A DNA stretch of 58,906 nt. Origin: an uncultured Pelagibacteraceae bacterium. GTDB lineage: Bacteria > Pseudomonadota > Alphaproteobacteria > Pelagibacterales > Pelagibacteraceae. The notes under the pieces are model-generated. The model made no database searches. It worked only from the letters and a program-made list of their open reading frames with translations, and was not told where the DNA came from. The stretch lies in the NCBI GenBank assembly GCA_902585045.1, contig CACICB010000006.1, forward strand, positions 1 to 58,906, written 5' to 3'. A program made the position numbers and the translations under genes. Positions within the stretch are counted from its first letter, which is position 1. Each line of letters opens with the position of its first letter. This document shows positions 4,084 through 51,549 of this stretch, piece by piece.

Positions 4084-4247
4084 TTTTATAACACCCAACA
4101 CCTATCGCACTAGTGGGCGAACCTTCGCTGACTAGTGTCGACACTCTTGTTTTCAAGAGCACCGCAAAAACATGTGTATTTGCGGAAAGTTAGCGGAAAC
4201 TACAATTTGGGGTTTTAAAAGTCAATGAATAATTATACTAATCAGTA
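4084..4247 (-). ncRNA. Structured intergenic RNA candidate in the ffh leader
   Basis: This 164-bp gap between divergent ffh and dapF holds three consecutive perfect hairpins. First, 4108-4137: 7-bp outer stem CACTAGT/ACTAGTG with inner stem GCGAA/TTCGC. Second, 4144-4159: CTCTTG/CAAGAG with a 4-nt loop. Third, 4162-4185: CCGCAAA/TTTGCGG. A 12-bp palindrome (4134-4145, AGTGTCGACACT) overlaps arms of the first two hairpins, so alternative pairing is possible. It is much more GC-rich than other gaps. The strand is assumed to be that of ffh. I recall, without being able to verify it, that a conserved RNA motif upstream of ffh was reported in a Pelagibacter screen. It lacks the T-arm consensus of tRNA and the conserved core of SRP RNA. 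Confidence 0.6.
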
Positions 4248-23490: not shown

Positions 23491-23498
23491 TAAATGCT

Positions 23499-23732
23499 TT
23501 AGATTGTTTTATTATAAGCTGATAAAATTTTTGAAGCAATTTTAGAATTTTCTAAGACAATTTTTTTCTGTTCAGCAGATAAATTTTCAATCTCTTTTGC
23601 AAATTCTTTTTCATACTTTTTCAAAGTTTTGCGAGTTTTGTAGTAAAAAATTCCACAAACTAAGAAAGTAATTACAAATGACGACCAAACGAAAACTCCG
23701 TAACCGTCCATTAATATTAAATTATTTATCAT
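23499..23732 (-). CDS. ccmD: Haem exporter protein CcmD
   Basis: Small single-pass protein that helps release holo-CcmE from the CcmABC complex. The first 30 residues hold the GYGVFVWSSF motif and one membrane helix, followed by a basic coiled cytoplasmic tail. At 77 residues it is a little long for CcmD. Its ATG overlaps the ccmC stop. The gene order C-D-E confirms the assignment of this weakly conserved family. Confidence 0.88.
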   Translation of the reverse strand: MINNLILMDGYGVFVWSSFVITFLVCGIFYYKTRKTLKKYEKEFAKEIENLSAEQKKIVLENSKIASKILSAYNKTI

Positions 23733-48463: not shown

Positions 48464-49459
48464 CTATAAATATTTGCTTACTAATTTCTCAAAAAGTTTA
48501 ATGTGTTCTGGGTTATCATTTAAACAAGGAATTAAATCAAAATTTTTACCTCCTTTATCAATAAAACTCTCTCTCCCTTGAATATTTATTTCTTCTAACG
48601 TCTCAACACAATCAGAGGCAAAACCAGGGCAAATCACTAATAGATTTTTTATTCCTTCTCCTGGTAATTTTTCTAATGTTTTATCAGTATAAGGTGTCAG
48701 CCATTCCTGTGGACCAAATCTTGACTGAAAGGTTGTTCGGATTTCAATTTTTTTAAACTTTTCTTTCATTAGCCTAGTCGTTTTATGGCAATAACAATGG
48801 TACGGGTCTCCTTTATCAAAATATGATTTTGGAATTCCATGATAAGAAGAAATTATCAAGTCAGGTTTCCAATCAATTTCATTAATTTTTTTTTCAATAC
48901 TATTAATTAAAGCATCAATATATAAAGTTTCACTCTCATAGTGTGGTATTATCTGTAAACTAGGCTGCCATCTCATCCTCATCAATGATCTATAAATTTC
49001 ATCACACACAGTAGCAGTTGTTGCCGCAGCATATTGAGGATAAAGAGGTAATGCTATTATATTCTCGCAGCCTTTATTTTTCATCATAGTAAGCTTAGAT
49101 TTTATACTTGGATTCCCATATCTCATTGCAAAATCTACTATTACATTTTCACCTCCTATTTTTTTATTTAGCTTCTGTGACTGTTGTTTTGTAAAATATA
49201 ATAATGGGGATTCATTGCTCTCCTTTCTCCAAATTTGCTTATACGCATGAGCGGTTTTAGAAGGTCGAAATGTAAGAATAAATAAATTTAGGATAACTTG
49301 CCAAATTATCGGATTAACTTCTATAACTCTTCTATCTGATAAAAATTCTTTTAAATATTTTCTTATGTCCCACCAACCAGTTGAGTCTGGTGTCCCAAGG
49401 TTGATTATTAAAATACCGGTTTTACCAAATTGTACATCTGGGTGATTTTTATCCATCAA
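48464..49459 (-). CDS. hemH: Ferrochelatase
   Basis: Inserts Fe2+ into protoporphyrin IX. Visible: NLGTPDSTGWWDIRKYLKEF, the active-site SSYHGIPKSYFDKGDPYH, FQSRFGPQEWLTPYTD and CPGFASDCVETLEEI. Length 331 is typical of proteobacterial HemH. It overlaps the end of hemE by 11 bp. Gene order hemE-hemH-hemJ-rho leads away from the predicted origin. Confidence 0.97.
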   Translation of the reverse strand: MMDKNHPDVQFGKTGILIINLGTPDSTGWWDIRKYLKEFLSDRRVIEVNPIIWQVILNLFILTFRPSKTAHAYKQIWRKESNESPLLYFTKQQSQKLNKKIGGENVIVDFAMRYGNPSIKSKLTMMKNKGCENIIALPLYPQYAAATTATVCDEIYRSLMRMRWQPSLQIIPHYESETLYIDALINSIEKKINEIDWKPDLIISSYHGIPKSYFDKGDPYHCYCHKTTRLMKEKFKKIEIRTTFQSRFGPQEWLTPYTDKTLEKLPGEGIKNLLVICPGFASDCVETLEEINIQGRESFIDKGGKNFDLIPCLNDNPEHIKLFEKLVSKYL

Positions 49460-50459
49460 AGTTCCTATAAAAATTAATTAGTTTACTTACCTTATCAGGA
49501 TCTGTTTCAGGAAGTAACCCGTGACCTAGATTGAAAACGTAAGGAGTCCCCTGAAAAGTTTGAATGTATTTAGTCGCTCCTTCAATAATATCTTCATCTT
49601 CTTTTAATAATATATTCGGATTTAGACCACCTTGAATCACTACATTTTTTAAATTTTTTTTCGCCCATACAGGGTCAATTTCTGAGTCTAAATTGATTCC
49701 ATCCGGTTTCACGATTTTGTTGAAATCTTCATATTTTTCTTTTATGCCCTTTGGGAAACAAATAGCAGGAATTTTTTGTTGTTTACAAAAATGTAAAATT
49801 TTTTCGTTTGGCGTAAAACAAAAATCATTTAAATTTTCATCTGGAACTAAGCCTGCCCAAGAATCAAAAATTTGTACCACATCAGCTCCTGCGTTTATTT
49901 GATTTTTTATATGAATACACAAAAAGTTAATTAGAGTTGCTATTATTTGATCTATTAACTCTTTACTATTATCAAGCTTTTGCAAATTTATTTCTTCTTT
50001 TTTCTCTTTTATATTTAACATGTAAACAATAAGAGTCCACGGCGCTCCGATAAAAGAGATTAATGACTTGTCTTTTACTAGTTTTCTTCTTGTGATATCT
50101 ATTGCTTTATAAATTGGACTAAGTTTATTTGAAAAATTATTCTCCTTATTTTTCAAAAATTCCTTTAAATTAAAATCACTTAGCTTTGGCCCCAAGCCTT
50201 TTGTAAATTTTACATTCTGTCCTAATGCATATGGTACCATTAAAATATCAGAAAAAATAATTGCGGAATCTAAATCAAACCTTTTAATTGGCTGCAGAGT
50301 AATCTCTGAGCTAAGCTCACTGTTTAAACATAGTTTAATAAAATCTTTATTTTTAGATCTAATGTTCTGGAATTCTGGAAGATACCTACCTGCTTGTCTC
50401 ATAAACCATATAGATTTACAAGGATTTTTATTTAATAAGATTTTCTTTAGATTGCTCAT
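49449..50459 (-). CDS. hemE: Uroporphyrinogen decarboxylase
   Basis: Decarboxylates four acetate side chains to give coproporphyrinogen III. Signatures are WFMRQAGRYLPEFQ near the start, FSDILMVPYALGQ, FIGAPWTLIVYML and the end block FNLGHGLLPETDPDKVSKL. Length 336 is normal. Its start faces the 271-bp AT-rich gap that I interpret as the chromosomal origin. Confidence 0.97.
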   Translation of the reverse strand: MSNLKKILLNKNPCKSIWFMRQAGRYLPEFQNIRSKNKDFIKLCLNSELSSEITLQPIKRFDLDSAIIFSDILMVPYALGQNVKFTKGLGPKLSDFNLKEFLKNKENNFSNKLSPIYKAIDITRRKLVKDKSLISFIGAPWTLIVYMLNIKEKKEEINLQKLDNSKELIDQIIATLINFLCIHIKNQINAGADVVQIFDSWAGLVPDENLNDFCFTPNEKILHFCKQQKIPAICFPKGIKEKYEDFNKIVKPDGINLDSEIDPVWAKKNLKNVVIQGGLNPNILLKEDEDIIEGATKYIQTFQGTPYVFNLGHGLLPETDPDKVSKLINFYRNFDG

Positions 50460-50730
50460 ATTATATAAGAGTTTTTTTAAACATTGTTTAGTAATAGGGC
50501 CTGTTTAATGGTCATATAACTATTTATACATTTTTTATACATATAATGATTAATAACTTTCCCCAAAAAAACGTTAATTTGAAGACTTTATTAATCTTAT
50601 AAACATTAGTAAAACATCATTATTAACATCTAACAAAATGTTTAAATATTGTTAATTAATGTTAATTTTTTCTACACTGATAAATTAAAAACTGAATAAA
50701 TTAACTTATTAATAATTTATTAACATATAT
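50460..50730. other. Predicted chromosomal replication origin (oriC)
   Basis: This is the longest gene-free stretch in the window, very AT-rich, between divergent hemE and the PPSR/RP001-type gene. In Caulobacter and Rickettsia the origin lies in the same position. It holds two TTATACAT boxes 11 bp apart (50524-50532, 50535-50543), another DnaA-like box TTATAAACA (50597-50605), several GTTAAT/ATTAAC repeats and AT-rich tracts suited to unwinding. None of the boxes is a perfect TTATNCACA. Genes on the right continue in the usual order (maf, aroE, coaE, dnaQ). Confidence 0.8.
50709..50723. promoter_or_regulatory. CtrA-like TTAA-N7-TTAA site
   Basis: TTAA and TTAA separated by exactly 7 bp (50709-50712 and 50720-50723), followed by C, matches the CtrA consensus used at the Caulobacter origin. 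In a sequence this rich in A and T it may arise by chance; I list it because of its place, 7 bp before the RP001-type gene. Confidence 0.35.
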
Positions 50731-51549
50731 ATGAACCAAAAATACAATGTATATCTTGTGTCTGATTCTACTGGTGAGACTTTAGATAGAATTTTTCTTT
50801 CATTGAAATCGCAATTTTCAAACTTTGACTATGAAAAAAAGGAATTTGCATTTGTCAGAACTGAACAGCAAATTGATAAAATCATTAAAGAATGCGTAGT
50901 CTCAAATAATTCATTAATCTTATACACAATAGTAGAAACTAAATTAGCAAAGTATATCGCAAGTCAGAGTGAAAAAGAAAGCGTTCCATGTTTTGGTGTG
51001 TTAGGCAATCTTATCCTCAGCTTTTCAAAATTATTAAATCAAAAAGCAATACACAAGCCTAGCGCCCAGCACGTTTTAGATGATGATTATTATAAGAGGA
51101 TAGAAGCTATTCAATTTACCATGTCTCATGATGATGGAAAAAAAGTCGACGATATAGATAATGCTGACGTAATTCTTTTGGGTGTAAGCAGAACGAGCAA
51201 AACACCAACTTCTATTTACTTGGCAAATAGAGGGTATAAAACTATTAATATCCCTCTAGTATTAGATCAAAAAATACCTGCTAATTTAACAGCTCAAACA
51301 AAAGCATGTGTGATCGGTTTAATAGCAGATCCCGCACGTTTAGCTGATATCAGGCGCAACAGAGTTGCAATCATGAATGAACACCAAATTAAAGATTATA
51401 CTGATTTAGACTTTATTAAAAAAGAAGTAAATGACTCAAAGAATCTTTTTAAGAAAAATAATTGGCCAATCATAGATGTCACAAGAAGATCTGTGGAAGA
51501 AACTGCTGCTTCCATCTTAAAAATAATAGAGATAAAAAAACATACATGA
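50731..51549 (+). CDS. Pyruvate, phosphate dikinase / PEP synthase regulatory protein (DUF299, RP001-type)
   Basis: Bifunctional kinase/phosphorylase of the PPSR family that switches PPDK or PEP synthase by threonine phosphorylation. The N-terminal YLVSDSTGETLDRIF, the nucleotide loop GVSRTSKTPTSIYLANRG and DVTRRSVEETAASIL are typical. Length 272 is normal. Orthologues of this gene are the right-hand neighbour of oriC in Rickettsia (RP001) and Caulobacter. Its stop TGA overlaps the maf start. Confidence 0.94.
   Translation: MNQKYNVYLVSDSTGETLDRIFLSLKSQFSNFDYEKKEFAFVRTEQQIDKIIKECVVSNNSLILYTIVETKLAKYIASQSEKESVPCFGVLGNLILSFSKLLNQKAIHKPSAQHVLDDDYYKRIEAIQFTMSHDDGKKVDDIDNADVILLGVSRTSKTPTSIYLANRGYKTINIPLVLDQKIPANLTAQTKACVIGLIADPARLADIRRNRVAIMNEHQIKDYTDLDFIKKEVNDSKNLFKKNNWPIIDVTRRSVEETAASILKIIEIKKHT

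Follow-up and report, generated by a model that had tools for sequence, protein, structure and literature searches.

A short, AT-rich gap between hemE and PPSR is very probably the chromosome origin in a Pelagibacteraceae bacterium

The DNA analysed here (58,906 nucleotides in full, referred to as the window) makes up one entire contig of a draft genome (918,826 bp, 29 contigs, 86.5% complete) from an uncultured Pelagibacteraceae bacterium of the SAR11 group, the dnaA gene of which sits on a different contig. Within the window, hemE and a PPSR (COG1806, RP001-type) gene form a divergent pair, both pointing away from a 271-bp gap (Table 1). With a floor of 60 amino acids for open reading frames, this gap was the longest intergenic stretch of the window and the runner-up measured 185 bp; raising the floor to 80 amino acids made a stretch of 238 bp (23491-23728) the second longest. 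Its GC content was 17.3% (82.7% AT), placing its AT content above that of its surroundings, as GC in 2-kb bins across the window ranged from 24 to 39%. Naming of the neighbouring genes with NCBIfam and Pfam models gave the order rho, hemJ, hemH, hemE on one side and PPSR, maf, aroE, coaE, dnaQ, secB on the other, maf and secB being named on Pfam cut-offs since the NCBIfam models for both fell below cut-off. The initial annotation, made from the sequence alone, had described the gap as the longest in the window, extremely AT-rich and transcribed away from on both sides, and had listed this same gene order; each of these descriptions was borne out. Elsewhere in the window, an SRP RNA (ffh sRNA, Rfam RF01793) was found above gathering score at 4100-4152 on the minus strand.

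Table 1. Features of the hemE/PPSR gap and its flanks (window positions; strand left empty where none applies)
Feature	Position	Strand	Basis
hemE, uroporphyrinogen decarboxylase, left flank	49449..50459	-	TIGR01464 above cut-off
Proposed chromosome origin (oriC), whole gap	50460..50730		Size conservation; skew and inversion pivot in relatives
AT-rich stretch adjoining hemE, putative first-melting region	50460..50485		Sequence; published BUS model
DnaA-trio-like run TAG-TAA-TAG	50489..50497	+	Sequence
GGCC, GC spacer separating trios from reverse box	50498..50501		Sequence; spacers in relatives
Decayed reverse DnaA box TGTTTAATG	50502..50510	-	G50503 and T50504 identical in 46/46 aligned gaps
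Weak DnaA-like box TTATACATT, first of tandem pair	50524..50532	+	Sequence
Weak DnaA-like box TTATACATA, second of tandem pair, 11 bp from the first	50535..50543	+	Columns 50536-50538 and 50541 conserved 89-96%
Weak DnaA box TTATAAACA	50597..50605	+	Sequence
Weak DnaA box TTATTAACA	50620..50628	+	Sequence
Triple of reverse TGT half-boxes at helically phased spacings of 11 and 10 bp	50639..50662	-	Conservation
Terminal DnaA box TTATTAACA beside PPSR start	50717..50725	+	A50723 46/46, C50724 44/46, A50725 46/46
PPSR / COG1806 / RP001-type kinase-pyrophosphorylase, right flank	50731..51549	+	NF003742 and PF03618 above cut-off

The length of the gap varied little among relatives. At 43 distinct loci of the family in which hemE adjoins it, the window's included, it measured 261-294 bp, and 69 further distinct gaps, which were held out, measured 263-280 bp. 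The held-out gaps came from 80 named loci chosen by their PPSR protein (79 labelled Pelagibacteraceae, Pelagibacter or Pelagibacterales and one labelled 'Rickettsiales bacterium'), of which one had no usable pair and 10 repeated earlier gaps; many of the 69 belong to close relatives, and counts of an element across relatives are not independent of one another. Rows arising from repeat fetches (L093, L094 and L107) or from a wrong stretch (L092) were dropped, and of the three gaps bounded by rho only the last 300 bases were kept, or the last 350 for trio scoring. Ranked by length among the intergenic regions of five sampled genomes, the gap came 12th, 16th, 5th, 2nd and 4th.

As hemE and PPSR start at the edges of the gap, their promoters must be located within it or close by, and the gap could in principle be a mere divergent promoter region whose conservation reflects transcription control. 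Nevertheless, where either neighbour had been lost, a similarly sized gap carrying DnaA-type elements remained. In genus g9, hemE did not adjoin the gap at any of the three loci read (L101, L102 and L111), and the gap was kept; in G009 it is faced by the gene in the rho position (identified as a reciprocal best hit), the rho-bound gap being 353 bp in both G009 and G022. In the sister family f122, PPSR was matched in none of the 30 genomes searched and the gap was again kept: hemE was matched in nine of 10 genomes searched, maf follows the gap at 9/9 loci (e.g., L198-L206), and the next large open reading frame starts approximately 275-332 bp from the hemE match at these nine loci. Such persistence after the loss of a neighbour is not expected of a plain promoter region, the sole conserved G/C columns of the gap are DnaA-box cores, and both GC skew and the inversion pivot indicate the gap (all described below), so that a purely promoter-based explanation is regarded as extremely unlikely.

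The state of hemE itself differed among these genomes. In genus g9, the best hemE match was a divergent decarboxylase (E values of 1e-50 to 1e-54) in six of eight genomes, while G066 carried a strong hemE that did not share a contig with PPSR and G047 gave no hemE match. Beside the gap, hemE was matched in two pieces at G040:C1:358209-359194 and at G011:C51:2904-3897, one piece carrying in-frame stops, and these two-piece matches are possibly a decaying gene.

GC skew within the window alone tracked gene strand and decided nothing on the origin. Skew was sampled in relatives, using twenty 20-kb stretches from each of five single-contig genomes and a model combining a gene-strand effect with a leading-strand effect, the terminus being assumed to lie opposite the origin. 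The maximum-likelihood origin was placed at 140.0 kb in G009 (gap at 141.45 kb), at 1060.0 kb in G022 (gap at 1061.8 kb) and at 1095.0 kb in G005 (gap at 1090.2 kb), the dnaA position scoring lower by 16.0, 5.7 and 11.6 scaled log units, respectively. The skew check called for by the initial annotation therefore came out, in three of the five relatives and two genera, with a switch no more than 5 kb from the gap and with dnaA, approximately 70 kb away, rejected, although in G005 the gap missed the 95% support set, which begins on the PPSR side, by 2.3 kb. In the other two relatives, G043 and G040, a leading-strand GC skew was undetectable, and these gave no evidence either way; they are of similar genome size to the three in which the leading-strand skew was clear. 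Counts of genes co-oriented with replication separated the gap from dnaA only slightly, at 253 versus 229 of 386 genes in G009, 245 versus 240 of 382 in G040 and 226 versus 220 of 357 in G043.

The position of the origin was also approached through genome rearrangement, by comparing the side of the gap with the strand for reciprocal best hits within approximately 100 kb of it. Between genera, genes were inverted almost only on changing sides of the gap. With the gap as pivot, exceptions numbered 0/141 (G043/G040), 0/138 (G043/G009) and 4/179 (G040/G009), as against 32, 23 and 57 for the same pairs with a pivot near dnaA, the genes in this test sharing a few events. The window behaved in the same manner: against G043 it gave 16 same-side, same-strand pairs and 49 opposite-side, inverted pairs (0/65 exceptions), and against G040 none of 65 pairs was exceptional, while against G009 it was collinear across 60 pairs and thus uninformative for the pivot. 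In G043, the pivot interval extended from -3.3 to +20.2 kb with the gap inside, a resolution of approximately 24 kb. Furthermore, the side of the gap that carries dnaA and parB differs among genera, as would result from origin-centred inversions.

The usual origin landmark in bacteria is dnaA. Were the origin to adjoin dnaA, the hemE/PPSR gap would be a relic or an ordinary spacer. The dnaA-side gap is also AT-rich, at 204-291 bp in the four genomes where it was seen, and in one SAR11 paper the whole-genome alignments begin at DnaA and origin-flanking regions are mentioned (PMC12421898). However, dnaA was rejected by skew in all three informative genomes, inversions do not pivot there, the four dnaA-side gaps contain no TTATNNACA core, and dnaA lies approximately 61-85 kb from PPSR, on either side, in the 14 genomes (out of 15) where the same contig carries both. 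An origin beside dnaA is consequently considered very unlikely.

The DnaA-binding potential of the gap was assessed next to that of the remaining window. Neither an exact DnaA box (TTATNCACA) nor any of the 22 one-mismatch TTATCCACA sites of the window occurs in the gap, in agreement with the earlier suggestion that it held only degenerate boxes. By contrast with the 0.06 expected from window density, three TTATNNACA cores were present, a number that 30 of 5000 dinucleotide-shuffled versions of the gap also reached. Among intergenic regions of 100 bp or longer, of which the five sampled genomes had 44, 71, 42, 32 and 54, the gap held the most TTATNNACA cores in every genome. A looser motif, with six matches in the gap against 0/2000 shuffles, had been chosen after looking and was given no weight, the TTATNNACA test being used instead. 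Exact DnaA boxes in relatives numbered 11, in eight of the 46 first-set gaps, and two across the 69 held-out gaps. An exact TTATNCACA (TTATACACA) also lies at 50920-50928 of the window, within the PPSR coding sequence and 190 bases from the gap.

The core counts are also relevant to an origin situated within approximately 20 kb of the gap but in another gap, for which there is room in that the inversion pivot and skew resolve to kilobases only and the G005 support set lies toward PPSR. Against this, every other intergenic region sampled contains fewer TTATNNACA cores, and between hemE and COG1806 lie the origin found by experiment in Caulobacter and the one predicted in Rickettsia (PMC1914354). 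Such a displaced origin is therefore judged highly improbable.

Across the 46 aligned rows, the only G/C columns occupied in the window and at least 85% conserved were G50503 (46/46) and C50724 (44/46), which are DnaA-box core bases, the former in the reverse box near hemE and the latter in the forward box beside the PPSR start codon. At the place of the reverse hemE-side box, loci L008, L022 and L026 carry an exact TTATTCACA; at that of the terminal box, L023 and L025 carry TTATCCACA and L106 carries TTATTCACA. Among the held-out gaps, the terminal box was represented by the pattern T.AT..ACA in 55/69 (2.2% of shuffles) and by a bare ACA in 69/69 (13.4% of shuffles), and the tandem TTATACA pattern was found in 53/69 (0.1% of shuffles). 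The phased TGT triple was present in 13/13 gaps of the window's genus versus 1/33 others; it had first been spotted in that genus and counted after, and the 69 later gaps, where it occurred in 66 (0.5% of shuffles), provide the fairer count.

In relatives, TAG-type trios were found across a short GC spacer from the reverse hemE-side box, 5' of it as read on the strand of the trios, an arrangement reminiscent of the basal unwinding system (BUS) of Bacillus subtilis oriC, the box strand of which it presumably matches likewise. The likeness comprises the trios, the short spacer and the DnaA-box, with trios lying 5' of the box as in the 5'-tail scaffolds of PMC8287927, and the BUS rules applied here were taken from PMC8287927, PMC6669920 and PMC10721633. 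A trio score of at least 6 was obtained for 22/46 gaps of the family (f1) versus 0/46 when reversed (0.4% of shuffles), the other 24 scoring under 6. The same threshold was reached in f122 by 5/9 gaps versus 1/9 reversed. Class-level sampling of 20 loci, in three of which hemE was not found, left 17 other alphaproteobacterial hemE/PPSR gaps (Caulobacter's sequence not among them), of which five scored this high for hemE-side trios with a reverse box versus 0/17 reversed. In several f122 loci, clear hemE-side TAG/TTG trios were noted. Under a strict BUS score, the module was correctly oriented in 19/46 gaps, of which 16 had it at the hemE side (spacer of 4 nt in 12 and of 7 nt in four), and two carried it reversed; the window was not included among these. 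The window keeps TAG-TAA-TAG, GGCC and the TGT, the rest of its box having been lost (five mismatches), so the module is placed there by alignment. Its trios are three of TA type, and its trio score was 5 once the box limit was eased to five mismatches. In comparison with the B. subtilis BUS, the window's box and trios are much eroded. In G040 the gap was only fifth by trio score, and in G005 it was tied. The published loose rule (at least three NAN trios no more than 16 bp from a box with up to two mismatches) was satisfied once in the window gap, at 50597 and with no TAG trio; as 169 of 300 shuffles also pass, this rule cannot decide in DNA this AT-rich.

Proteins and sites of the known regulatory layers were also searched for. 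The DnaA of the window's own genome has RDHTTV in its DNA-binding domain, which we take to be the usual DnaA specificity motif. The CtrA model NF045991, a Rhodobacterales-named form that a divergent CtrA could escape, was above cut-off in 0/10 genomes and 1/14 controls. Strict CtrA sites (TTAA-N7-TTAA) numbered one in the gap, at 50709, and 11 across the window, while the looser TTWW-N7-TTWW matched 699 times across the window, 15 of them in the gap, and was uninformative. For IHF, neither the site form WATCAANNNNTTR nor the form WATCAN5WTR from PMC1914354 occurs in the gap; HU/IHF-type genes were found in all six genomes searched. GANTC is absent from the gap, and a published survey reported a CcrM homologue in SAR11 (PMC3973325). 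From 24 OmpR-type matches, 14 of them with a locus, five proteins were scanned: two were PhoB above cut-off, two fell below every cut-off shown (the nearest being a sortase-system model and an OmpR model) and one was short and matched in its DNA-binding half alone. A regulator-like protein, L183, is encoded on contig C4 of the window's own genome, with an OmpR-type DNA-binding half and no receiver matched; weak matches resembling it lie 7-9 kb from parB in G040, G026, G009 and G005.

The initial annotation had likened the flanks to those of the Caulobacter and Rickettsia origins, and for hemE and COG1806 the printed description agrees, this being the experimentally found position of Cori in Caulobacter and the predicted origin position in Rickettsia (PMC1914354). 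With Caulobacter crescentus Cori (hemE and CC0001/COG1806), the gap shares both flanking genes, AT-richness and DnaA-type boxes. It differs in length (404 bp for Cori versus 271 bp here), in having no consensus DnaA box in the window gap, and in that Cori has five CtrA sites (PMC1914354) whereas CtrA was above cut-off in none of the 10 genomes. The predicted Rickettsia origin (hemE and RP001) has the same flanks and a similar AT content (81.5-82.8% versus 82.7% here) at a length of 383-396 bp (PMC1914354). The notion that the gap would show how far an origin can shrink held in part: it is shorter than the origins given for Caulobacter and Rickettsia, but two of the 17 other alphaproteobacterial gaps measured only 274 and 288 bp. 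The position is that of the known alphaproteobacterial hemE/COG1806 origin, and the gap is very probably an origin of this kind, set apart by its shorter length, its worn boxes and a CtrA layer that was not detected. Among the papers listed in searches of an open-access library, none was found that describes a SAR11 origin sequence. The HTCC1062 oriC is said to have been 'manually identified' (PMC4033161), and that chromosome is among those discussed for uneven arms (PMC2099444); a term search of the main text of the Ori-Finder 2022 paper (PMC10225481) did not find hemE named.

As skew, inversion geometry, persistence of the gap and enrichment of DnaA cores agree, it was concluded that the gap is the chromosome origin, with ordered weak DnaA boxes and predicted melting at its hemE side (probability roughly 0.93), and the initial proposal of a very likely origin is thereby supported from relatives. 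The location is supported there by skew, the inversion pivot and persistence, and the elements are seen to be conserved and to keep their order; we infer DnaA occupancy, the direction of melting, a single origin and the same situation in the window's own organism. In the proposed mechanism, DnaA would bind the ordered weak boxes spanning the gap, namely the reverse hemE-side box, the tandem forward pair, the inner boxes with the phased reverse triple, and the forward box touching the PPSR start. A DnaA oligomer loaded from the reverse hemE-side box would then cross the short GC spacer onto the TAG-type trios and melt the AT-rich stretch adjoining hemE. A more specific hypothesis, tentative and on balance doubtful, is that the origin in this SAR11 genus operates without a high-affinity DnaA anchor or CtrA, through an ordinary-reading DnaA acting cooperatively on a low-affinity array spaced by helical turns.

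SAR11 cells rank among the most abundant in the ocean, and metagenomic estimates of growth rate rely on origin-to-terminus read depth. For some genera sampled here, skew did not reveal the origin, and dnaA lies approximately 61-85 kb away. A conserved set of elements that outlasts the loss of a neighbour offers a portable origin marker. With a usual-motif DnaA facing worn sites and no CtrA found, the timing of replication in streamlined cells becomes testable in vitro. If the anchorless array is real, initiation would be set almost wholly by the concentration and nucleotide state of DnaA, and the gap would represent the alphaproteobacterial origin in a minimal form under weak regulation.
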